Assembly: GCA_947494335.1 (NCBI GenBank)
Contig: CANLUT010000002.1
Coordinates: 62,001-126,000 of the forward strand
Length of the DNA stretch: 64,000 nucleotides
DNA from: Oligoflexales bacterium
GTDB lineage: Bacteria; Bdellovibrionota_B; Oligoflexia; Oligoflexales; RGVZ01
Direction of reading: 5' to 3'
This document shows, piece after piece, positions 11,237 to 45,507 of this stretch. The translations under genes and the position numbers were made by a program. The notes beneath the pieces were generated by a model. The model worked only from the letters and a program-made list of their open reading frames with translations, was not told where the DNA came from and made no database searches. Every line of letters begins with the position of its first letter. Within the stretch, counting starts at the first letter, position 1.

Positions 11237-11263
11237 GGGCATGCGGCAGCTTCCCTAGTAGCT

Positions 11264-11331
11264 AATTGGTGCCTCCCGACTGATTAACCGATATATTTGG
11301 AAAATGAATAATCAGTCGGATAGCACCAATT
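11264..11331. repeat. Palindromic repeat A, full copy 1
   Basis: A 23-base arm (11264-11286, core GGTGCCTCCCGACTGATTA) and its imperfect inverted copy (11309-11331, core TAATCAGTCGGATAGCACC) match at 20 of 23 positions and flank a 22-base loop ending TTTGGAAAATGAA. A further partial arm (GGCACCAATTAATTA) follows at 11335-11349. A second full copy in the same orientation lies at 12155, matching this one at about 59 of 68 positions by my count. Confidence 0.85.
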
Positions 11332-11373
11332 AATGGCACCAATTAATTACACAAATTAATTACGGAGATTGAA

Positions 11374-12147
11374 TTGGCCAAAATTTTTGTTAGTTTTGTC
11401 TTAGGAACACTTCTACACGGCTGTATATTTTTGTCTAAATCAGATTTGAAGCAAACCGCAGCTTCTGCTTGCAATTACGGTCAATCTAATACATGTCCAC
11501 AAGGTGAGTTCTGTATTAATGTCGATAAGGGCAAAACAGAATGTCGTAGCAATCTCAAAGAGGAACTGTTTGAGCTAGGATTTCCTTTTGAATCTATAAA
11601 TCCAGTTGTGTGCGATCAAGGACCTTTATCTCCTCCCGGTAATAGCCATACTTGGCTAAATACCGCATTTGCTCTTGATCTCCAATCCGACAGATCATCG
11701 TCTGAAGTACCAATTCTTTCAAGTGCAGAGGGACGAGTCATCGCGTTTAATGATTGCAATAACGAAAATGATCAGTGTGGACTTGGTTTTGGCAACGCGG
11801 TGAAAATTTTGACCGACAGTGGTCATCTTTTATTTTACGCGCATCTCAAGCGTACCCTCGTTAAAACTGGTGATCTAGTTAGAGTCGGTCAAAAAATTGG
11901 TATTGAGGGAACAACTGGATGGACTGGTGAAGGAAACCGCCATTTGCATTTAAGTGTCCACTACGACTGGCGAACAGCGGGTTTTGAATACTGGAAGCAG
12001 GCGGGATATCTCCCGGCATCGGTGCCGTTCAAAATGTTGATGTGCACTAATGGCTGTACAGCCGAGTGTAAAATGGCGGCAGTCGATGTTAGAACAATTG
12101 AATGTAAGCGGAATTCAAAAAGTGCTCCCGTTTTATGTACAAAGTAA
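11374..12147 (+). CDS. M23-family (LytM-like) peptidase lipoprotein
   Basis: The 257-residue product starts at TTG (11374) with CGGAG 6 bases upstream. Its signal peptide ends LLHGC (C17), so it is probably a lipoprotein. The C-terminal half has the M23 pattern: SHTWLNTAFALD with candidate zinc ligands H92 and D102, YAHL at H157, and NRHLHLSVH with H190 and H192. This family cleaves peptidoglycan cross-bridges or acts as an amidase activator. A Cys-rich segment (CPQGEFCINVDKGKTEC) lies between signal and peptidase domain. The gene stands alone between two direct copies of repeat A. Confidence 0.75.
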   Translation: MAKIFVSFVLGTLLHGCIFLSKSDLKQTAASACNYGQSNTCPQGEFCINVDKGKTECRSNLKEELFELGFPFESINPVVCDQGPLSPPGNSHTWLNTAFALDLQSDRSSSEVPILSSAEGRVIAFNDCNNENDQCGLGFGNAVKILTDSGHLLFYAHLKRTLVKTGDLVRVGQKIGIEGTTGWTGEGNRHLHLSVHYDWRTAGFEYWKQAGYLPASVPFKMLMCTNGCTAECKMAAVDVRTIECKRNSKSAPVLCTK

Positions 12148-12154
12148 GCTGATT

Positions 12155-12222
12155 AATTGGCGCCACCCGACTGATTAAGAAATAGATTTGGAAAATGAAT
12201 GATCAGTCGGATGGCACAAATT
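12155..12222. repeat. Palindromic repeat A, full copy 2
   Basis: A 23-base arm (12155-12177, core GGCGCCACCCGACTGATTA) and an inverted copy (12200-12222, core CAGTCGGATGGCAC) enclose a 22-base loop ending ATTTGGAAAATGAA, as in copy 1. It starts 7 bases after the stop of the M23-type gene. Confidence 0.85.
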
Positions 12223-12323
12223 AAGGCTGATAAAATAGGCACTACTTAGATGAAGAATTGGATATGGAAGAAAATAGCCCCGCCCTAATAATTCATGTCC
12301 ATCTAGATACTTCGAGAAGCACA

Positions 12324-12620
12324 ATGACAAAGAAAACAACCAAAGTCTTGCCTGGACCCGTCCATAGTTTACCAGCTGATCTGCTGAAGGCAATTAATGC
12401 AACGCCTGCGATCAAGAAGGTCTGGGGTGAACTGACACCCCTTGCGCAGAATGAGTGGATCTGCTGGGTCATATCGGCAAAAAAAGTAGAAACGCGGATT
12501 AAGCGAATTGAACGGGCGCAAGATGATTTGAAGGCTGGCAAAAAGCGACCCTGTTGCTGGCCTGGTTGCCCACACCGCAGGCCAAAATCTGCTAAGTGGT
12601 TTAACGACAAAACGGCGTGA
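12324..12620 (+). CDS. YdeI/OmpD-associated (OmdA) family protein
   Basis: The 98-residue product contains LPADLLKAINATPAIKKVWG, an NEWICWVISAKKVETRIKRI segment and GKKRPCCWPGCPHR, matching the helical pattern of YdeI/OmdA-like proteins. Relatives have been linked to bacteriocin or peptide resistance, but the biochemical role is not established. I start at the ATG at 12324, which has GAGAAG 6 bases upstream; a longer in-frame version from 12258 adds a non-conserved leader. A degenerate repeat-A fragment follows the stop at about 12625. Confidence 0.75.
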   Translation: MTKKTTKVLPGPVHSLPADLLKAINATPAIKKVWGELTPLAQNEWICWVISAKKVETRIKRIERAQDDLKAGKKRPCCWPGCPHRRPKSAKWFNDKTA

Positions 12621-12675
12621 AAGGTTTAATTAATCAGCGCCAATGGAATAGACTCAATAAAAAACGAGGAGCTAA

Positions 12676-13041
12676 ATGCAGATAATTCGTGGCAACGAGA
12701 TTGTGCACAAGAATCCTAGCCAAACCAAAGACTATCCGTACGCCCTATCGTCAATCTTATTTGAAACAGATCAACTATTTGTTTCTAGTGAACTTTTAGG
12801 ACCTGGAAAGAAGGCGTCTGCCCCCCATCGCCATCAACTTCAAGACGAGATAATCCTGGTGACCAAAGGCGAGCTACAAGTTTTTGAAGGAACGGAAAAA
12901 GCCACTCTCGCTGGTGGGGACTACGTTTGCTTTGCGGCAAATTCCCATAACGATCATTATATTGAAAATAATTCGGGAAAGGACGCCCAGTTTATTTTGA
13001 TTAGAAGAAGTAAGCATCTCCATGGAGACGTTCGGTATTAA
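12676..13041 (+). CDS. Cupin-domain protein
   Basis: The 121-residue single cupin has HRHQLQDEIILVTKGEL in motif 1 (two His and a downstream Glu as likely metal ligands) and a second-motif region with GGDYVCFAANSHNDHYIEN. ACGAGGAG precedes the ATG. Such small cupins may be metal-dependent enzymes or binding proteins, and the substrate cannot be told. Its stop lies 12 bases before a half-copy of repeat A. Confidence 0.8.
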   Translation: MQIIRGNEIVHKNPSQTKDYPYALSSILFETDQLFVSSELLGPGKKASAPHRHQLQDEIILVTKGELQVFEGTEKATLAGGDYVCFAANSHNDHYIENNSGKDAQFILIRRSKHLHGDVRY

Positions 13042-13053
13042 AAAAATGGAAAA

Positions 13054-13074
13054 CAGTCGAATGGCACCAATTAA
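13054..13074 (+). repeat. Half-copy of repeat A
   Basis: CAGTCGAATGGCACCAATTA plus one base matches the right arm of repeat A; TGGAAAA, reminiscent of the repeat loop, lies just before it. The module supplies the likely start codon of the next gene (ATG at 13061). Confidence 0.75.
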
Positions 13075-13522
13075 AATTTTTTATGACGCATTTTGCGTAC
13101 GAGATGGCGAAACGATGGCCTCGCTCTACGCCGATGACGTTGAATTTCAAGACCCAGTATTTCCTCAGCTTCGCGGCGAATATGCAAAATCCATGTGGCG
13201 CATGCTGTGTGAAAAGGGAGCCGACCTGGCTGTTACATACGAAATAATTTCATCAGACGGTGACACACACAAAGTCCGTTGGGATGCTCGGTATACATTT
13301 ACAGGAACAGGCCAACAAGTTCACAACAAGGTCCTGGCAACTTTAGTGGTCAAAGATGGAAAGATTACAAAGCACACTGATCAATTTAGCTTCTGGCGAT
13401 GGTCAAGGCAGGCATTGGGAGTTCCAGGACTTTTACTTGGATGGACGCCCGTGCTTCAGAAAAAAGTCCAAAATCGCGCCAGAAAATCTCTTGAAGCCTA
13501 CATGGCGCAAAAAAAGAATTAG
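13061..13522 (+). CDS. SnoaL/NTF2-like protein
   Basis: The product (153 residues from ATG 13061, 158 from ATG 13046) has the NTF2-like cone pattern: FYDAFCVRDGETMASLYADD, VEFQDPVFPQLRGE, VRWDARYTFTGTG and KITKHTDQFSFWRW. Members are polyketide cyclases, isomerases or ligand-binding proteins; no catalytic residue was assigned here. Both candidate starts lie in or beside a half-copy of repeat A, whose bases encode MAPIK. The stop codon TAG at 13520 also merges with a second half-copy, so the gene is bounded at both ends by repeat sequence. Confidence 0.75.
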   Translation: MAPIKIFYDAFCVRDGETMASLYADDVEFQDPVFPQLRGEYAKSMWRMLCEKGADLAVTYEIISSDGDTHKVRWDARYTFTGTGQQVHNKVLATLVVKDGKITKHTDQFSFWRWSRQALGVPGLLLGWTPVLQKKVQNRARKSLEAYMAQKKN

Positions 13523-13540
13523 TCGGATGGCACCAATTAA
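13521..13540 (+). repeat. Half-copy of repeat A between convergent genes
   Basis: AGTCGGATGGCACCAATTAA fills the 19-base gap between the SnoaL-like gene, whose TAG stop runs into it, and the convergent dipeptidase gene, whose stop begins 2 bases later. Confidence 0.75.
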
Positions 13541-13541
13541 A

Positions 13542-14306
13542 TTACTGGACGGGTTCTGTAAAATAGCGATCCGTAAATGGCTCTTCGGCGAGCGTATAGT
13601 GCCACCATTCTTTTTCGTAGTTTTTAAAGCCTGCCTGCTCCATGACAGTCTTTAGTAACAATCGATGGGCACGGGACGCGGGCGTAATCTGATCGTCTGC
13701 TGTATAAGAGCGTTCATCAAAACAATCAAAGGATGTCCCCATATTGAGTGACCCATCACGGTCATAGAGGCCCGGAACCGTAAAGCATGATCCTGAAGGC
13801 ACAGACGCCAAAGGCTTCATAACACCGGCAGGAGCAATCGTTAGATCAATGGTACTTCCCCGAGAGTGGCCCGACTTTTCAGCGATGTAGCCACGCTCAA
13901 ATAGCTTTTCGATATTTTCCTTAGGATAGTAAAAGCGTTTTAGCCTTAGATTATCTCTGCCCTTAGCCCAAGCCATGAAAGCCGCCACCGCTTCCTGCGG
14001 TCTATAACAATCATATGCCTTTAGACTAAGGCCCATAGGCTTTAATACCGCCTGCGCCTTGGCGAGACCGACCGCGGCCTGACTTGTGAGAAGACACTTT
14101 GACGCCTTATAGCCAGGGACAACTTTGCCGGTAAAGTTTGCGGAACTTGCGTAGCGAGCATCGACCATGATGGTTGAGTCGATGTCTTTAATGTCGACAA
14201 AGATAGTCTTTTTATCCGATGATCGAGCATCAGAGGCCTCCTCAGCAGTTGCCTCAAAGGAGAATCCACAGGCTATGCACATCACAAGACTAAAAATTTT
14301 TTGCAT
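13542..14306 (-). CDS. D-alanyl-D-alanine dipeptidase (VanX/DdpX, M15D family)
   Basis: The 254-residue enzyme has SGHSRGSTID (SxHxxGxxxD zinc motif, H147 and D154) and EKEWWHY (catalytic Glu and third zinc His), plus YDCYRPQ with the transition-state Arg. It cleaves D-Ala-D-Ala, in recycling or nutrient use of peptidoglycan fragments. I start at the ATG at 14306, which gives a signal peptide (MQKIFSLVMCIACGFSFEAT), so it is probably periplasmic. The longer frame to 14366 adds a non-conserved leader. No vanH or ligase gene lies nearby, so glycopeptide resistance is not implied. Confidence 0.87.
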   Translation of the reverse strand: MQKIFSLVMCIACGFSFEATAEEASDARSSDKKTIFVDIKDIDSTIMVDARYASSANFTGKVVPGYKASKCLLTSQAAVGLAKAQAVLKPMGLSLKAYDCYRPQEAVAAFMAWAKGRDNLRLKRFYYPKENIEKLFERGYIAEKSGHSRGSTIDLTIAPAGVMKPLASVPSGSCFTVPGLYDRDGSLNMGTSFDCFDERSYTADDQITPASRAHRLLLKTVMEQAGFKNYEKEWWHYTLAEEPFTDRYFTEPVQ

Positions 14307-14364
14307 GTCAGCCCCCATCAAGAAATCAAGATTTTTCAAGGTATCACAAATCGAGGCATGAAAC

Positions 14365-34622: not shown

Positions 34623-35906
34623 ATGCGCAAAATTATCGACACCAAGTCTCGCGTGACCGTGACCGCACTCATCTCCCTGGCAGCCATTAGCATTGCGGGC
34701 TGTAGAAGTCGTGAGACTACAAACGCTGGCAAGTCAAAGTCGGCAAACTCAAACTCCGAGCTTCGCGAGTACGAAGTTACTGACTGTCCGAAAACACTTT
34801 GCACGGCCGACACCACTATAGTGGGGCTAAACCCTCAGGAATCTGATCTCGTTGCCTTAGGCGTTAAAGGCTTTGAAGAGCAGATGGCTCTCGACGAATC
34901 CGCTATGGTCGACGATGTCAGAGGCCAGGAGGCCGAGCGACTATTAAACGAAGCCAAAATCGCCAATATCACGCTTAAAAATGTTCTCTCTAACGAGCAA
35001 AAACCAAAAACGGAAAACGTGGCCACGACTGGGCTCACGGCTCTCTTTGGCAGCTTGTCATCGGCTCTTTCCACGGGAGCAAAGCTAAATGAGTTTGCTC
35101 GTAATAATATTGAAGCTGAAAACGAAGAGCAGCGTGCAAAGACCATCAAGAAAATCCTCGGCCTCATCACTGAGACCAAAAAACTTCTAAAGCCAGAAGA
35201 CAAAGAAAAACTTATTTCAGTGCTCCCAGCTCTGAAAACAATTGCTGGCGATGACGGTTGGATCAACCGCGGCGATCTTCCTCGATTTCTACCAGTCATC
35301 CCTAACGTCGTCGGAGCGGTAGCCGATCAGAAAATTTCGCAAGGCTATGCGGAAGGAATCGCCGATCTTGCACGCTCTAGACCATTCGCATACCGCCGCT
35401 GGGTTAGGGCACCAAACGGCATTATTGGGCGCGTCGTCCAGCGTAACGTGAACGAACAGCTAAATAGCGCCTACTCTCAAAAGTGGGCTGCCATCCGAGA
35501 TGCATCGGCTCAGCTACAGCAAGGCTTCAACACACTGATGGATCAGATTGGTAGCGAAGGCTTCTACCTGGATATCGATGACGGCAGAAACTACTACGAT
35601 CCTGCTGCTGCCGTAGAAGAAGAGCAGATTGATACGCTCGCCAAGGCCGTTGTCGGTAAATCTTTGCGCGATATTGTTCAGGCTGCAGCCGATCGAGGAG
35701 GATCGGTCCAGGTTGGAGATCTTGATCTTGGACCGGCGGGCGTGATTTTAAACTCGGTCGTCTTGCCCGAGGGCATTCCCATTGGCGAGATTACTGCTCT
35801 TGTAAAAGAGTCTGAAGGGTTTACGAAAGAGGTATTTCCAAAAAACCTTCGCTTTAAATTAGCAGCAGATGGACGACTTGAAATAAAACGGCTTATCAAA
35901 CGATAA
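34623..35906 (+). CDS. Lipoprotein of unknown function
   Basis: The 427-residue product has a signal peptide with an ideal lipobox SIAGC (C27). The mature part has a low-complexity Ser/Asn stretch, a largely helical middle (DVRGQEAERLLNEAKIANIT, EQRAKTIKKILGLITETKKL) and a C-terminal region with the segment VGDLDLGPAGVILNSV. No family was identified. A hairpin covers the stop codon. It faces the Cys-tailed lipoprotein gene. Confidence 0.75.
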   Translation: MRKIIDTKSRVTVTALISLAAISIAGCRSRETTNAGKSKSANSNSELREYEVTDCPKTLCTADTTIVGLNPQESDLVALGVKGFEEQMALDESAMVDDVRGQEAERLLNEAKIANITLKNVLSNEQKPKTENVATTGLTALFGSLSSALSTGAKLNEFARNNIEAENEEQRAKTIKKILGLITETKKLLKPEDKEKLISVLPALKTIAGDDGWINRGDLPRFLPVIPNVVGAVADQKISQGYAEGIADLARSRPFAYRRWVRAPNGIIGRVVQRNVNEQLNSAYSQKWAAIRDASAQLQQGFNTLMDQIGSEGFYLDIDDGRNYYDPAAAVEEEQIDTLAKAVVGKSLRDIVQAAADRGGSVQVGDLDLGPAGVILNSVVLPEGIPIGEITALVKESEGFTKEVFPKNLRFKLAADGRLEIKRLIKR

Positions 35907-35937: not shown

Positions 35938-37281
35938 CTAACTTTGACAGCTGGAACAGGATCCGCAGGATCCACCGCAATTGCCATTTGCACAGTTGGA
36001 GCAGGTTCCGCCGCTACAGTTGCCACCACTGCAGCCTCCGCAGTTACCGCCACTGCAGCCAGCGGACGCAAGCTCACCGAAGAGGCCACCAAAACTATCT
36101 TTAAGCTTCGATAATCCACCCATGGAGCCTAAAACAGACTGCAAGCCACCACCACCTGCGCCGCTCATTAGAGACGAGAACAAGTTGGCAATGCCACCCA
36201 TTCCGCCTGCAGCACCTCCACCCGCCATGGATTGAAGTTTCCCAAGCAAGGGCATAACGGACGACAAGAGATCACCACCGGCCAGAGCAAAGCCACCGGA
36301 CTTACCGGCTGCTGACTCACGAGGCTGAGCTGATCCACCCATCAAAATGCTTGAAACATCCACAACTGCCGCATCAATATCGGCAAAGAGGTTACTTGAT
36401 TGCTTAAACTTCTGACGTGCCACATCCAATGATGTGCTGTTACAGTGAGCTGACTGGAATGAGTTCGCATACACATAATCGAGAAACTGGCTGCGACGTC
36501 CCTGATCTCTGAGTGCAGAGATACGATCCAGAGGCCCCAGCGTATCGCCGCTACGAAGCTCGCTCGCTACGTTTTGGCCAAGAAGATTCTTTAAAGCATC
36601 AAACTGATAGTTTTTCATGACAAGTAAGTCATTGAGGAAGGCATTTGCAACGCGCTCTTTGTGTCCAACAAAAGAGGTCGTTTCCTTATCGACAATAACA
36701 ATTCCCTTTCCACCTGGGGCAAGGGACAAGCGACTATAAAACTGAGCATACATATAGCCAAAGATCTGCGGGCCAAAATATCTGATCTTTTTAGCGTCTG
36801 GAGACTGAACGATCGTAAAAATCGGGGTCGACTTGCCACTCGGATCACTGACGAAGTTAAAACAACCGTCAGTAACTTCGCCTTGGGAGGCATCCAGAGA
36901 CTTTCCGAAATGAGCGTTTTTGCAAAGATCGGATGAGCGACTGGAAATTACGACCTGACCGCCAAGCTTAAGAAACAACGCCTCTGCTGATGGGGGAAGG
37001 GCCGAGAAGTAGTCTTTGACTGCGCGACGCAGGTCCGACTTTTTCTGCTCGGACAGTGCCGTAGTGTCGTTTTTGTCAAAAATGATGCTTGCATCAGAAA
37101 TCGTCGATGACGCGCTACCTTTGCACTGGTAAGCATCAATATTCAGTACACCGGATGCGATGCTATCGAGAGTCTTAATTCGTGCAGCGCTATCGATTTC
37201 CTTCTGCTTGCAAGAAGACAGTCCAAAGACTACGGAAAAAGACATCAGTGCAAGACCCGAGATCATTCGCGCGTTCATCAT
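35938..37281 (-). CDS. Lipoprotein with Cys/Gly-rich C-terminal tail
   Basis: The 447-residue product has a textbook lipobox LSSC (C24). The central domain is a soluble region of about 300 residues without a recognised motif. A Gly-rich segment (AGGGAAGGMGGIANLF...) leads to a tail from about residue 403 with ten Cys in some 40 residues, arranged as CSGGNCGGCSGGNCSGGTC and further repeats. The tail could bind metal or form disulfides. AGGAG lies before the ATG. Confidence 0.78.
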   Translation of the reverse strand: MMNARMISGLALMSFSVVFGLSSCKQKEIDSAARIKTLDSIASGVLNIDAYQCKGSASSTISDASIIFDKNDTTALSEQKKSDLRRAVKDYFSALPPSAEALFLKLGGQVVISSRSSDLCKNAHFGKSLDASQGEVTDGCFNFVSDPSGKSTPIFTIVQSPDAKKIRYFGPQIFGYMYAQFYSRLSLAPGGKGIVIVDKETTSFVGHKERVANAFLNDLLVMKNYQFDALKNLLGQNVASELRSGDTLGPLDRISALRDQGRRSQFLDYVYANSFQSAHCNSTSLDVARQKFKQSSNLFADIDAAVVDVSSILMGGSAQPRESAAGKSGGFALAGGDLLSSVMPLLGKLQSMAGGGAAGGMGGIANLFSSLMSGAGGGGLQSVLGSMGGLSKLKDSFGGLFGELASAGCSGGNCGGCSGGNCSGGTCSNCANGNCGGSCGSCSSCQS

Positions 37282-39345: not shown

Positions 39346-40038
39346 TTGAAACAATTTAGTTTGATCAAGATTAATAGACCGACATCGGCAGTCGTCATCA
39401 ATGTGCGACAGATTATTTGCGTCCTAATTGCGGTTAGCTTTGTCGGCTGTGTTCCGCCAAAATCTACGAGCCGCAACAAAGCAGGCACGGGCACTCCATC
39501 TGGGTCGAATGGCTCTAATGGTGGCGGACAGATTTCAGCAGAAGCTTCAAAACTGTTTGATTTCTTATCGGATGACATAAACCGTAGAGCCACCCAAAAA
39601 CTGAATGGCAAACACGTTCACGAAGCAGTCAAACTGTTTGGAGAGATGGTTTATCTGTGCATAGCCGTGTCCGCGCAGGCGGGAAAATGTACTGTCTATC
39701 AGAATTTTGGAACACCAAAGTCCTACCAAGGCACATGCGCGACAAAGGTTTATGGATCATTGATTGGGATTTTCTGTAAGAAAGAAAATGGAGAAGACTG
39801 CGTGCCAGACTCTCAAGGCAGACCCGATACGACAGGTGCTATGCAATTATCTGAAAAATTCGAAGACGAGGCTCCTTCAGGCGACGACACCGGTGTTTTT
39901 GATCCTCTTAAAGATCCGATGGCTCCCAAGGATCACCGGGAAGAGGCTCTAAAGCTTCTTGATAAACCAACGTTTAAGAATCGCTGGAACGCAACGTTTA
40001 CGATCGATAACGATTCCTGCAATGATTTTATGAAATAA
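39346..40038 (+). CDS. Lipoprotein of unknown function
   Basis: The TTG at 39346 lies 3 bases after AGGAGG, which is tight. The 230-residue product has a long N-region followed by a hydrophobic stretch and SFVGC (C35). The mature part has a Gly/Asn/Ser-rich spacer, then a domain with six Cys (CIAVSAQAGKC, CATKVYGSLIGIFC and others), suggesting disulfides. No family was recognised. The region after it holds a palindrome and repeats. Confidence 0.65.
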   Translation: MKQFSLIKINRPTSAVVINVRQIICVLIAVSFVGCVPPKSTSRNKAGTGTPSGSNGSNGGGQISAEASKLFDFLSDDINRRATQKLNGKHVHEAVKLFGEMVYLCIAVSAQAGKCTVYQNFGTPKSYQGTCATKVYGSLIGIFCKKENGEDCVPDSQGRPDTTGAMQLSEKFEDEAPSGDDTGVFDPLKDPMAPKDHREEALKLLDKPTFKNRWNATFTIDNDSCNDFMK

Positions 40039-40072: not shown

Positions 40073-40092
40073 CGACTCCGACGTCGGAGTCG
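40073..40092 (+). terminator. Palindromic terminator-like hairpin
   Basis: CGACTCCGACGTCGGAGTCG is a perfect 20-base palindrome followed by GGGGTTTT, 35 bases after the lipoprotein stop. Confidence 0.5.
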
Positions 40093-40144: not shown

Positions 40145-40176
40145 TTCATGTTTGCTAACGGTTTGCTATCGGACGA
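40145..40176 (+). repeat. Repeat B, copy 1 (32 bases)
   Basis: TTCATGTTTGCTAACGGTTT followed by GCTATCGGACGA matches copy 2 at 42646 at 30 of 32 positions. It is directly followed by a half-copy of repeat A. Confidence 0.8.
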
Positions 40177-40177
40177 A

Positions 40178-40201
40178 TTAATTAGTGCCACCCGACTGGT
40201 T
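40178..40201 (-). repeat. Half-copy of repeat A, inverted orientation
   Basis: TTAATTAGTGCCACCCGACT and four more bases are the reverse complement of the repeat A right arm. Confidence 0.7.
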
Positions 40202-40428
40202 CAGCATGTGCGGCTCCAGAGAAGAGTCGTTTTGCTCGAGTCTTTTTTATTGGAATCAGGTGTCTTTATTCTGTTATGTGGATTTAAACCGCAAGCATAA
40301 ATTTATTTCATATTTACAGCGTGTTAGAACGCACTATTGGTTGGGTTGCGAGGGGCAAAATTATATCAGACTTAAGTTCTGCTTCAGACACTCCGAACTC
40401 CTCTTAATATGCCAGGAGTGCGCTATTG

Positions 40429-42570
40429 ATGCCAAGAAATCGGCCAGTAAATTTTGGCAAAATCTCGATCATCTTAACGATGACCGCCGCTCTTGCTTGC
40501 ACGAAAAGCCCTCCCAAAGCCGTTGGGCCCATCGATGCCGCAACGTATAACAAGCAGGGCTCTGACGGGACCTATTCGTTAACCATTGTGCTTCCTAAGA
40601 CCGCTGCAACAGGCCTTTCGCTCGCCGGAGGAAATGAATCCACGGTCTCATACACCAGCTTCAACAGCGACGGAAATGAAACCGCGACTGGAGACGCTCA
40701 AGTATCCACAGATGCAGACGGCACGCCGACGGCTCAATTGAGCGTGGATCCCGATTCTATCTATGCAATTGAGACCCGAGATTTTGGTATCGTAATACCA
40801 CAAACAGGTGACGCCCCCGGGGCGAATCTTCAGGTTCCAATGACCCTCGCTGGCAAGAACGTGGTTGATGCATTCAAATCTCTTCCGAAGGAATCAAGAC
40901 CTTTTCTAAATCCCGCAGCAGCTGAGGTACTACTTCCCGCTGGTACTAAATATGATAACTCGACCATGAAGGATATGATGCTAGCTCTAGCCGAGCAGAC
41001 TAAAAGTATGCCTCTTGAAAAAAGACTTGAATTAAATCTAGAGCGAGCAAAAGTTGTCATTGACTACAAAGATATCGTTAAAAATTCCGGAGACCTCGAG
41101 GTCGCTTTCGTCAGCGCAACCGCTTCAGCTGGCAAAGCATTTCTCGCGTCCAATCCCGACTTAAGCACAAATCTAATCCTTAAACTGCTACAAAGGCCCG
41201 CAGAAGCTTTGACAGCAAATTCAAACTTGATCATGACGCTACCATCAACAACTAAATCGCAAGTCCTAAGCCAGGCTCTGGCGCGGCAAGTTGTAAGTGC
41301 AATTGTGGAAAACAACGACGGCAAACCATTTTCCACAACGGATTTAAAAAGAGTCACACCCACTTTGGAAAATGTTCAGGCCGGATATGTTGCTGCAAAG
41401 TCATATAGTGACGCCTTCGCTGAGAAGTTCATTCAGTCCGTGAGATCAGCATCATTTGCCGACGACGGAAAATCAAAACATTTTGACCCTGAAAAGTTTA
41501 CTGGCACTGTCAGCGAAGCTTTGGATCGAGTCAGCTCGTTGCCCGACATGCAAGCTTTCTTTGGCAATAAGGAAAGATTGGAGAGCAATACGCCAGGCTG
41601 CGTTGAGTGGCGCGAAAAATGTTCCGGTGAGACGCATCCCGATCCACAGAAAGTTGCTTCGGACCTGCAAAATGCAGCACATGATCTCATAGGCCTCCTA
41701 ACGAACCTTAGCGATACAGACCAAGCAATCCTATCCTGCTCATCAGGCCTCACTCAGCAAGCGATCGGCAGCGCAACCGAGTGTGCAAATGGTGGCTGTG
41801 TTGACGGAACTGGTATTTTAAATCAGGGCGCTAAAGCAGCTTGTGCAATCAACGAATGCCTCGAAAATTTCATGGAACATAATCCATATGTCGAGGCCAT
41901 GTCTGTTACTTGTGAAATTGGAGATAAGCTTGGCGAGGCCATCGAATGTAATGGCTTCCCCGGCCTAGGTGGAGGATTAGCCAGCCTCTGTGATACTGAA
42001 ATTAAGAATAGAAAACCGCCGGAGTTAAAGCCTTGTCCTTACTCTCCAAGTGTTCCCGCATGCAGTAGTGATGGCAGACCCCTTAGCGAAGGTGATATTG
42101 AAACAGCGTGTCTTAATCAAGTTGACGGCTACAATAGCGATCAAGATTTCGCCCTATTTCAAGGAGCATGTCTGGCAAGGTGCACGTCATTGACTGGTGA
42201 AGCGGCAAAAAATTGTGAACCCACCCCACCACCTCCATCATCATTCTGCGCTGTAGGTGACGTCGTATACGGAGGGTTCACTTACTCCAATTTGACGGCC
42301 GCTCAGTGCGAAGAAATTGGACTCTATTCGTGTTACGGAAATGAACCTAATTCACCTTGCAGGTGTGGCCACCCACAGAGCGCCCCCAGCTGCACGGAGT
42401 ATTATCAGATGACCGTTGAGAACTCCTACCCAGGTGTAGTTTTGCCGATTCCGCAGGAGCTTTGCCCAGACGCGTTGCTTGAGGCTGCAAAGCAAATCAA
42501 TAACCCAACAGACTGCGCAGGTTTGTCAGCCAGCAATCCCGGCTTCAACATTCGCTGGATCCAAAAATAA
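40429..42570 (+). CDS. Large Cys-rich lipoprotein bracketed by repeat B
   Basis: The product (713 residues from ATG 40429; TTG 40426 is also possible) has AGGAG upstream and a signal peptide ending AALAC (about C24). The N-terminal half is beta-type (DGTYSLTIVLPKTAATGLSL) then helical; the C-terminal third has many Cys (CVEWREKCSG, CANGGCVDGTG, CPYSPSVPACSS, CYGNEPNSPCRCG), as in disulfide-rich surface domains. Direct copies of repeat B flank it at 40145 and 42646. No family was recognised. Confidence 0.75.
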   Translation: MPRNRPVNFGKISIILTMTAALACTKSPPKAVGPIDAATYNKQGSDGTYSLTIVLPKTAATGLSLAGGNESTVSYTSFNSDGNETATGDAQVSTDADGTPTAQLSVDPDSIYAIETRDFGIVIPQTGDAPGANLQVPMTLAGKNVVDAFKSLPKESRPFLNPAAAEVLLPAGTKYDNSTMKDMMLALAEQTKSMPLEKRLELNLERAKVVIDYKDIVKNSGDLEVAFVSATASAGKAFLASNPDLSTNLILKLLQRPAEALTANSNLIMTLPSTTKSQVLSQALARQVVSAIVENNDGKPFSTTDLKRVTPTLENVQAGYVAAKSYSDAFAEKFIQSVRSASFADDGKSKHFDPEKFTGTVSEALDRVSSLPDMQAFFGNKERLESNTPGCVEWREKCSGETHPDPQKVASDLQNAAHDLIGLLTNLSDTDQAILSCSSGLTQQAIGSATECANGGCVDGTGILNQGAKAACAINECLENFMEHNPYVEAMSVTCEIGDKLGEAIECNGFPGLGGGLASLCDTEIKNRKPPELKPCPYSPSVPACSSDGRPLSEGDIETACLNQVDGYNSDQDFALFQGACLARCTSLTGEAAKNCEPTPPPPSSFCAVGDVVYGGFTYSNLTAAQCEEIGLYSCYGNEPNSPCRCGHPQSAPSCTEYYQMTVENSYPGVVLPIPQELCPDALLEAAKQINNPTDCAGLSASNPGFNIRWIQK

Positions 42571-42645
42571 TTAACTTTGGGGACCCACCGCAAAGTAGAT
42601 CAGACCGTCCGACCAACGGCACACCGTTAAAGAGGGATTCCCGTT

Positions 42646-42677
42646 TTCATGTTTGCTAAAGGTTTGCCATCGGACGA
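42646..42677 (+). repeat. Repeat B, copy 2 (32 bases)
   Basis: TTCATGTTTGCTAAAGGTTT followed by GCCATCGGACGA lies in the same orientation as copy 1. An imperfect inverted arm (GTCCGACCAACGGCACACCG, about 42608-42627) lies upstream. Confidence 0.8.
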
Positions 42678-42703
42678 TGTTGTGCACCCACCCCAAAAAG
42701 AAA

Positions 42704-42730
42704 CGGCCCTGATTTATTCAATCAGAGCCG
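42704..42730 (-). terminator. Terminator of the initiator tRNA gene
   Basis: CGGCCCTGATT (42704-42714) and AATCAGAGCCG (42720-42730) pair with one mismatch; on the minus strand a T-run (from AAAAAGAAA) follows. Confidence 0.78.
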
Positions 42731-42740
42731 TGACTTAGTT

Positions 42741-42816
42741 TGGTAGCGGGGACAGGACTTGAACCTGTGGTCTTCGGGTTATGAGCCCGACGAGATACCA
42801 ACTTCTCCACCCCGCG
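42741..42816 (-). tRNA. Initiator tRNA-fMet (anticodon CAT)
   Basis: The minus-strand sequence folds as a tRNA with CCA encoded. The anticodon arm CGGGCTCATAACCCG has the three consecutive G-C pairs typical of initiator tRNAs. The first base pair is C1.U72, a mismatch; most bacterial initiators have C1.A72. T-loop GGTTCAAGTCC and the D-arm look normal. Confidence 0.93.
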
Positions 42817-42869
42817 TCATTTGGGACCCCTTTATAGGCTGCTGGCTGAAAAGTGTCAATGAAAGAAAA

Positions 42870-42895
42870 CCCCCAAGTCTTCGATGACTTGGGGG
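42870..42895 (-). terminator. Rho-independent terminator of the aconitase gene
   Basis: On the minus strand CCCCCAAGTC and GACTTGGGGG form a 10-bp stem followed by TTTTCTTT, 27 bases after the stop. Confidence 0.88.
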
Positions 42896-42921
42896 CTCTT
42901 GTTGGACTTGGTTTTCAGCGA

Positions 42922-45330
42922 TCAGTCCTTCATGAGGTTTAGTGCAGAGCCTGCCTTAAACCACTGAATCTGCTCGGCATTATAACTGTGCTTGGCTTCA
43001 AAGCTGTCTTTGGAGCCGTCGGCGTGTGTGATGTCGACGTGCAGGTTTTTGCCAGGTGCAAAGGTGGAGAGGCCACGGATCGAAAGCTTATCTCCGTCAC
43101 GAACCTTCTCCCAGTCACTTGGGTTAGCAAACGTCAGAGCAAGGCCCCCTTGCTTCTTGAGGTTGGTTTCGTGGATACGAGCAAAGCTTTTCACAATCAC
43201 CGCACTCACACCAAGAAATCTTGGTGACATCGCTGCATGCTCACGACTGGATCCTTCACCATAGTTTTCGTCACCAACAACGACCCAGCGTACACCGCGT
43301 GCCTTATAGTCACGGGCAACTTCGGCCACCGTTTTCACGTCACCGGTGAACGCGTTCTTGGTTTTGCCGATGTCTTTTTCCATGAATGCATTGGTCGCAC
43401 CAAGGAACATGTTGTCAGAAATCTTGTCCAAGTGACCGCGGAAGGCTAGCCACTTACCAGCTGGTGAAATGTGGTCGGTCGTTGTTTTGCCTTTGGTCTT
43501 AAGAAGAAGCTGATGTTCTACGAAATCTTGTCCATCCCACGTACCGAACGGTGCAAGAAGCTGTAGGCGAGGGCTCTTTGGACTAACGGCAACTTTTAGT
43601 TTGTCACCGTTTTCTGCAGGCTCTGCAAATCCAGCTGTGCCCTTGGCAAACCCTACCATCGGAAGCTCAGCACCCATCGGTGCGCGCAGACGAATCTTCT
43701 GACCAGCTTTGTTGGTCAAATAATCGGTGTAGGGATTAAAGGAAAGACTTCCTGAGATCGCATAAGCCACAACCATTTCTGGTGAGCTGATGAAGCCTAG
43801 AGTTTCTGCGTTGCCATCGTTACGGGCGCGGAAGTTTCGGTTAAAGCTAGTGACGATGGAGTTTGGAGTACCATCTTTCATGTCGTCACGCTTCCACTGA
43901 CCGATACATGGACCGCAGGCGTTGGCCATGACCACAGCGCCAAAGTCTTCAAAGACTTTAAGCAGTCCATCACGCTTCATCGTGTTGTAGATCTGATCAG
44001 AGCCTGGAGAGACAAGGAACTGGCTCTTAGCTTTAAGTCCTTGCTCCATCGCGTACTTCACAACACTCGCTGCACGCGAGATGTCTTCGTAGGAGCTATT
44101 GGTACAGCTTCCAATGAGGCACGCAGAGATTCTGTCGTGGTAGCCTTTTTCTTTTACTTCACCACCAAGTTTTGAAACTGAGCGCGCAAGGTCAGGAGTA
44201 TGAGGACCAACGATCTGCGGCTCTAGCTCAGAAAGATTAATCTCGATCACTTCATCGTAGAAACGCTCTGGGTGTGCTTCACAGTCAGCGTCTGCTCTGA
44301 GGTGTTCTGCATAATGATCTGCAAGATCTGCCAGCGCTGTACGCTCAGTGGTACGAAGGTATGTTCCCATGCGCTCATCGTAAGGGAAGACTGAGCATGT
44401 CGCGCCAAGCTCTGCACCCATGTTGGTGATGGTCGCTTTGCCGGTACAAGAAATGGATTTTACTCCTGGGCCAAAGTATTCAACGATTTTGTTGGTTCCG
44501 CCCTTAACAGTGAGCTTGCCACAAAGTGCTAAGATCACGTCTTTTGGAGAAGTCCAGCTTGAGAGAGAGCCTGTGAGTTTTACGCCAATAAACTTGGGAT
44601 TGAGAAGTTCCCAAGGCATGCCAGCCATCACGTCTACGGCATCTGCACCGCCCACACCAATGGCACACATGCCAAGGCCGCCAGCGTTTGGCGTGTGGGA
44701 GTCTGTCCCGATCATCAAACCACCGGGGAACGCATAATTTTCAAGGACTACTTGATGAATGATACCGGAGCCTGGCTTCCAAAAACCAATGCCGTATTTT
44801 TTGCTGGCAGAGGCAAGGAAGTCATACACTTCATCGTTATCTTTATTGGCTGTCTTCATGTCAGCTGCAACGCCCTTACGAGCGACGATCAAGTGATCGC
44901 AGTGCACAGTCGATGGAACAGCCACTTTCTTTTTGCCAGATTGGATGAACTGCAAAATAGCCATCTGCGCAGTCGCATCTTGCATCGCGACGCGGTCAGG
45001 ACGCAGCATGATAAAGCTTTTGCCGCGTGTGTACTGACTGACGTTCGTGTCGTTATCTAAGTGCGAGAAAAGAATTTTCTCTGCAAGGGTTAGCCCGCGA
45101 CCAAGGTCTTTGCGGTAGCGCTCAAGCTTTTGTCCCAATGCTTGATAATGTTTTGCAACAACCTCTGGACGAGTGGCGCATACACTCACCTTTGCTTTGC
45201 CAGATGATTTCGCCGCTGACTTTTTTGCGGGAGCAGATTTTTTTGCCCTCGCTGTTTTCTTTTTGGCAGAGGGTTTTGCTTTCTTAGGGGACTTCTTTGC
45301 GAGGATTTTTTTTGCGGATTTTGAGGTCAT
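42922..45330 (-). CDS. acn: Aconitate hydratase (mitochondrial type) with lysine-rich N-terminal tail
   Basis: The 802-residue enzyme has the [4Fe-4S] Cys in GSCTNSS and ACGPCIG, DSHTPN and [10 protein letters not shown] motifs, matching aconitases that convert citrate to isocitrate in the TCA cycle. Its sequence is closest in pattern to the mitochondrial type rather than AcnA/IRP or AcnB. I start at the ATG at 45330; this leaves a tail of about 47 residues made almost only of Lys, Ala, Ser and Pro ([20 protein letters not shown]), like histone H1 tails, before the conserved domain. A longer frame to 45378 is less likely. Confidence 0.9.
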
Positions 45331-45404
45331 AGACGTGTGGTCCTTTCTCGGATTTCTACACCCTCCAGATTGCCACAACCCCCCAAAATATCAAGGAAAT
45401 GCCT

Positions 45405-45507
45405 AATTGGGGGACACACGACTGATCCCAATTAACTGACCTTATTTGGGTTTGGTCGCCTGTCCCCAAATTCACCAAATTTGGGTTTGGTCGTGTGTCC
45501 CCAAATT
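45405..45507. repeat. Three-arm REP-like element
   Basis: Arm A (45405-45433, GGGGACACACGACTGATCCC) is inverted relative to arms B (45445-45472) and C (45480-45507), which share TTTGGGTTTGGTCG and TGTCCCCAAATT and differ at 2 of 28 positions. The GACACACGACTGAT core resembles repeat A, so the families may be related. Confidence 0.75.

Follow-up and report, generated by a model that had tools for sequence, protein, structure and literature searches.

The 32-base direct repeat described here (repeat B) is probably a pair of arm-type, integrase-binding sites left by former tRNA-Met integrative elements whose integrases are now gone. Two copies lie in the window, by which we mean the whole 64,000-nucleotide stretch of Oligoflexales DNA that was analysed. 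A first-pass annotation had placed the copies at 40145 and 42646 in the same orientation with one gene between them, and had noted that another repeat, repeat A, adjoins copy 1; we confirmed both observations. The features of the locus, with the roles that we propose for them, are as follows.

40145 to 40176, plus strand: repeat B copy 1, with tandem 11-mers at 40150-40160 and 40161-40171 (10/11 alike); proposed arm-type site pair.
40178 to 40197, minus strand: repeat A half-site directly beside copy 1; a dispersed palindrome.
40426 to 42570, plus strand: gene of 714 codons with a TTG start, for a putative Cys-containing lipoprotein; the single open reading frame filling the interval and proposed stranded cargo.
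42646 to 42677, plus strand: repeat B copy 2, with 11-mers at 42651-42661 and 42662-42672 (8/11 alike); proposed arm-type site pair beside the tRNA.
42703 to 42731, minus strand: terminator-like hairpin after the tRNA-Met, conserved in relatives.
42741 to 42816, minus strand: tRNA-Met (CAT), an Rfam match and the proposed integration target; its 3' fragments border elements in relatives.
42922 to 45378, minus strand: aconitase-like gene; the conserved neighbour used to locate the same site in relatives.

The two copies of repeat B were identical at 30 of 32 bases, on the same strand at a spacing of 2501, and the identity ended sharply at 32 bases on both sides of each copy. With up to 3 mismatches allowed, the 22-base core matched twice in the window compared to no matches in 100 shuffles. 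The same search of the whole 3.34-Mb genome also returned only these 2 matches, and none for a reversed control pattern. Repeat B is thus neither a dispersed repeat family nor the common intergenic element that a genome search might have revealed. Same-strand 32-base pairs with up to 2 mismatches and within 3 kb of each other occurred only twice in the window, as repeat B and as repeat A.

Each copy consists of two tandem units, GTTTGCTAACG and GTTTGCTATCG in copy 1 (10/11) and GTTTGCTAAAG and GTTTGCCATCG in copy 2 (8/11). Period-11 pairs at 10/11 were found in the window only at copy 1 and in one T-rich stretch, and the tandem identity of copy 1 was matched by none of 400 shuffles of its 120-base flank. 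Copy 2 alone, taken as a tandem pair, was not significant, being equalled by 17.5% of the shuffles of its 120-base flank (P 0.175).

Copy 2 lies 63 bases beyond the 3' end of the tRNA-Met, just past the terminator hairpin, and the tRNA-Met itself is intact. No displaced 3' fragment of this tRNA was found between 30 and 42.6 kb of the window, and the rest of the genome gave only two matches at E = 1.28. Likewise, no integrase or integrase remnant was detected at 32-43 kb; the genome has three genes with PF00589, none of them near the tRNA-Met site of the window. Beside copy 1, neither a terminator nor a tRNA end was found. An 11-base stretch left of copy 2 that is alike to the end of an integrase in a relative (G005) was considered as a hidden integrase remnant and rejected (shuffle P 0.25). 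The MAPEG and ABC1 genes, which lie next to the uninterrupted site in G006 and G007, could not be used as a marker of the outer edge; the ABC1 homologue is on another contig here.

Using 42560-43400 of the window as a query, we obtained matches in 7 of 10 genomes of the family, several of which carry extra partial copies of the 3' part of the tRNA together with its downstream sequence. Eight stretches around the tRNA-Met sites of relatives were read. Integrases, integrase remnants, and tRNA 3' fragments were present at the tRNA-Met of G001, G005, and G009, and a tRNA fragment at that of G004. Two elements stand in a row beside the tRNA-Met of G001. The first carries defence-type genes along with an integrase-like gene whose Pfam score is below the cut-off (L067:14409-15656); the second has an integrase gene (L066:10251-11399) that ends against a tRNA 3' fragment. 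The defence-type genes of G001, at L067:144-8247 and 13358-14359, include DUF499, DUF3780, a DUF1156 methylase, a PLD-helicase, and a type IV restriction-like gene.

The order in G005 is tRNA, a B-like pair, HTH and PIN genes, a decayed tRNA end with terminator and B copy, and integrase remnants. The window shares this layout, a small cargo segment with a B-like copy on each side; in G005 the outer copy is followed by integrase remnants, and the flank of copy 2 is partly conserved there. In G009 a HipA-like gene is accompanied by integrase remnants and by an outer copy of the terminator; the genes after that outer copy are those found directly after the tRNA in the uninterrupted sites of G006 and G007. 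Where the tRNA fragments break off, 5 of the 6 sites examined contained GGGTTATGA, from the anticodon-loop region. Four of these 5 departed from the tRNA sequence within 3 bases, and the middle site of G001 did so 9 bases further on; the remaining site, the outer copy of G005, was too decayed to place the break. Cargo in G001, G005, and G009 was mostly of defence, toxin-antitoxin (HTH and PIN, HipA-like), and satellite type, and exported-protein genes were not the usual content between B-type sites. No tandem 11-mer pair better than shuffles was found at the uninterrupted tRNA-Met sites of G006 and G007, nor in the tRNA-side flanks of G009 and G004. Judged from these sequences, integration in this family has a hot spot at the tRNA-Met.

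Tandem pairs next to integrases were sought more widely. The G005 integrase fragment matched in 6 of 43 genomes of the order, and an alignment of three integrase sequences retrieved 48 loci in named genomes and 1 distant locus in viral contigs. At each of the 48 loci, the span from 30 bases before to 120 bases after the stop codon was searched for tandem pairs with at most 1 mismatch, and the counts were compared to those in shuffles. Pairs of period 11 occurred at 6 loci (L085, L088, L089, L091, L092, and L095) vs 0.05 expected. For periods 7, 8, 9, 10, and 12 the counts were 8, 3, 1, 1, and 1 loci vs 6.75, 2.55, 0.85, 0.3, and 0.05 expected.

A tRNA scan of 16 loci placed a tRNA-Met directly downstream of the integrase in L088, L089, L090, and L091, and a tRNA-Met 3' fragment was read downstream in L085 and L087. 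With the second integrase of G001 and L078 (from G022), these are the 8 integrase-bearing tRNA-Met sites. Pairs of 10/11 or 11/11 were present at 5 of the 8 (L085, L088, L089, L091, and G001), in each case at the integrase end facing the tRNA; L090 had a pair of 8/11, and L087 and L078 had none worth the name. The final codons of the G001 integrase gene are overlapped by both the tandem 11-mers and the terminator (L066:11346-11399), and in L091 the pair begins at the stop codon. L086, which has the same integrase as L074 of G004, had neither a pair nor a tRNA downstream. The three integrases of the genome under study were followed by an exact period-10 pair (L082, C1:253464), by an exact period-12 pair and a tRNA-Arg (L083, C1:823979), and by nothing, respectively.

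We propose repeat B as an arm-site pair because tandem short sites between an integrase and a tRNA core look like arm-type sites. Tyrosine-recombinase elements would insert into the 3' half of the tRNA-Met, and repeat B would be the integrase-side arm of attP, each copy offering two tandem 11-base sites to which the N-terminal domain of the integrase may bind. A complete element would have the order integrase, B-type pair, terminator, and tRNA 3' end up to the anticodon loop. Both copies in the window would have lost their integrase. Copy 2 would be a scar that has kept its native place next to terminator and tRNA. Copy 1 is most likely what remains of a second, older element lying further out in a tandem array like that of G005; the terminator and tRNA fragment of that element were probably lost at the point now adjoined by repeat A. 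On this reading the enclosed gene may be stranded cargo.

Copy 1 could have another origin. Copy 2 might be the old flank of the tRNA and itself the scar of an arm site, with copy 1 arising as a 32-base duplicate during entry or rearrangement of the gene segment rather than as a trace of a second element. Such a local duplication is possible, if unlikely, and it agrees with the conserved place of copy 2, with an identity that stops so sharply on both sides, and with the lack of a terminator or tRNA end after copy 1. However, 32 bases is long for a target-site duplication, and it would be odd for the derived copy to keep the better tandem pair (10/11 vs 8/11). In addition, G005 has, in a single row, tRNA remnants and two B-like copies, so tandem elements do occur at this site.

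The copies might instead be the two arms of one attP, now separated as attL and attR of a single element with one gene. Exactly one gene does lie between them, and Cluster J mycobacteriophages are described as having arm pairs to either side of the core (PMC3706429). This arrangement is nevertheless improbable, as the far core would be expected left of copy 1 and no tRNA 3' fragment was found there, and the sequence that we read beyond the core in G004, G013, and G001 was unlike repeat B. We give slightly less credence still to a live, minimal cassette, in which the integrases of passing elements would act in trans on an integrase-less unit of one unique lipoprotein gene with an arm-type pair at each end, moving it into and out of the tRNA-Met site.

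An ordinary intergenic motif with a regulatory or structural role, such as part of the tail of the tRNA transcript or the site of a shared regulator, occurring twice by chance, is also a very doubtful reading of repeat B. The position of copy 2 just past the tRNA terminator and its partial conservation in G005 would fit such a motif. However, repeat B was absent from the uninterrupted tRNA-Met sites of G006 and G007, copy 1 is not near any tRNA, and the genome has no further copies. Repeat B was rejected as a known RNA as well, the only Rfam match being the tRNA.

Repeat A has a different character. Its half-site occurs at 29 places genome-wide on both strands, compared to none for the control, and many of these, read with their flanks, proved to be arms in palindromes with the form GGTGCCACCCGACT ... 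AGTCGGGTGGCACC. The repeat is REP-like, TTAATTGGTGCCACCCGACT being separated from its reverse complement by a loop whose length varies, and is sometimes clustered; it is also found at 11262-13540 of the window. No Y1-type transposase (PF01797) that could account for it was found in the genome. Repeat A is unrelated to repeat B and has no special tie to it despite abutting copy 1. Other palindromes were seen in the same sequences. A perfect one, ACTCCGACGTCGGAGT, lies at 40075-40090, left of copy 1, and a nearly equal one, CTCCGACGTCGGAG, lies near a repeat A copy in L017. A further repeat type, palindrome-like and with GTCCCC at its end, stands in tandem at 45434-45503 of the window and also beside a repeat A copy in L017 (GGGGACACACGAC ... 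GTCGTGTGTCCCC).

The annotation had read repeats A and B as two families doing the same thing, and suggested that they may mark swappable surface-protein loci. That parallel fails, with repeat A a dispersed palindrome of 29 half-sites that no Y1-type transposase was found to explain, and repeat B looking like an attachment-site part tied to one tRNA gene. The part of the idea that stands is that the locus varies: unrelated cargo lies beside the tRNA-Met in relatives, and the gene between the copies, which may have a lipoprotein signal, is an orphan. Surface proteins are not borne out as the theme, as the cargo in relatives was mostly not exported proteins, one gene of G001 (L066:3098-4387) having been read by eye as a putative, kelch-like lipoprotein, and repeat B has one pair only; we consider a pair of systems marking such loci scarcely credible.

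The enclosed gene had been described as encoding a Cys lipoprotein. Its product is likely a lipoprotein, but the prediction is weak, since the Cys context, ALAC, is not an ideal lipobox. The gene had no Pfam match, no homologue in 37 relatives or in 57 other genomes of the phylum (overlapping sets), and none in the plasmids or phages searched. A single-sequence structure model was uninformative (mean pLDDT 43). Foreign composition was considered and rejected, the GC of the segment being equal to that of the window. The gene is thus an orphan, which is in line with cargo, though orphan status is not proof of it. Further putative lipoprotein genes (a signal-like start with Cys) lie nearby at 34623-35906, 35938-37281, and 39346-40038; the first two had no Pfam match, and the third had one sub-threshold match only.

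Arm-type sites with a comparable arrangement have been described. The attP of Cluster J mycobacteriophages is located 3' of int; its arm sites come as paired, imperfect direct repeats of 10 bp, and the core edge falls within a tRNA anticodon loop (PMC3706429). Five arm sites with a 10-base consensus are reported for ICEMlSym-R7A (PMC11963761), and arm sites are described as bound by the N-terminal domains of integrases (PMC2951348). The sites proposed here resemble those of the first two systems, as these accounts present them, in being paired short direct repeats 3' of a tyrosine-recombinase gene, beside a tRNA-gene core edged in the anticodon loop. They differ in their period of 11, in being candidate sites known from sequence, and in the missing integrase at the window copies (PMC3706429, PMC11963761). 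Short direct repeats beside both an att core and an integrase gene were found in relatives; the window copies have no integrase, and only copy 2 has the terminator and tRNA.

As in the tRNA genomic islands and tandem arrays of the Islander account (PMC4383910), the target tRNA is regenerated, relatives carry 3' fragments and integrases, and several elements stand in a row in G001; unlike those islands, the window has neither a displaced tRNA fragment nor an integrase. CIMEs are described as integrase-less decayed elements that keep their att sites, the classical ones being 1.2-13 kb (PMC7563491). The segment is alike in being small cargo beside a target gene and in lacking genes for recombination or transfer: between the copies there is a single gene, with no Pfam match, and none for recombination, conjugation, or mobilisation. 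It is unlike a CIME in that no second core attachment site was found in the window; repeat B is at both ends, and the core (the tRNA end) is at copy 2 only. In addition, the most decayed elements are described as farthest from the target gene in that system, whereas the segment here adjoins it (PMC7563491). Functionally the locus resembles a decayed genomic island in a tRNA gene, or a CIME, as these sources define them; both are defined in part by a far attachment site, which was searched for and not found here, and we therefore assign the locus to neither (PMC4383910, PMC7563491).

Taken together, a repeat pair that resembles a cassette would be explained as the trace of a known process. Integration beside a tRNA gene is a known kind of hot spot, and the one here looks like it holds one unique, possibly exported, protein gene. 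The tRNA-Met site would be a spot at which defence, toxin-antitoxin, and orphan genes accumulate in members of this order, and the tandem 11-mer between integrase and tRNA may serve as a mark by which decayed elements can be recognised after the integrase has been lost.
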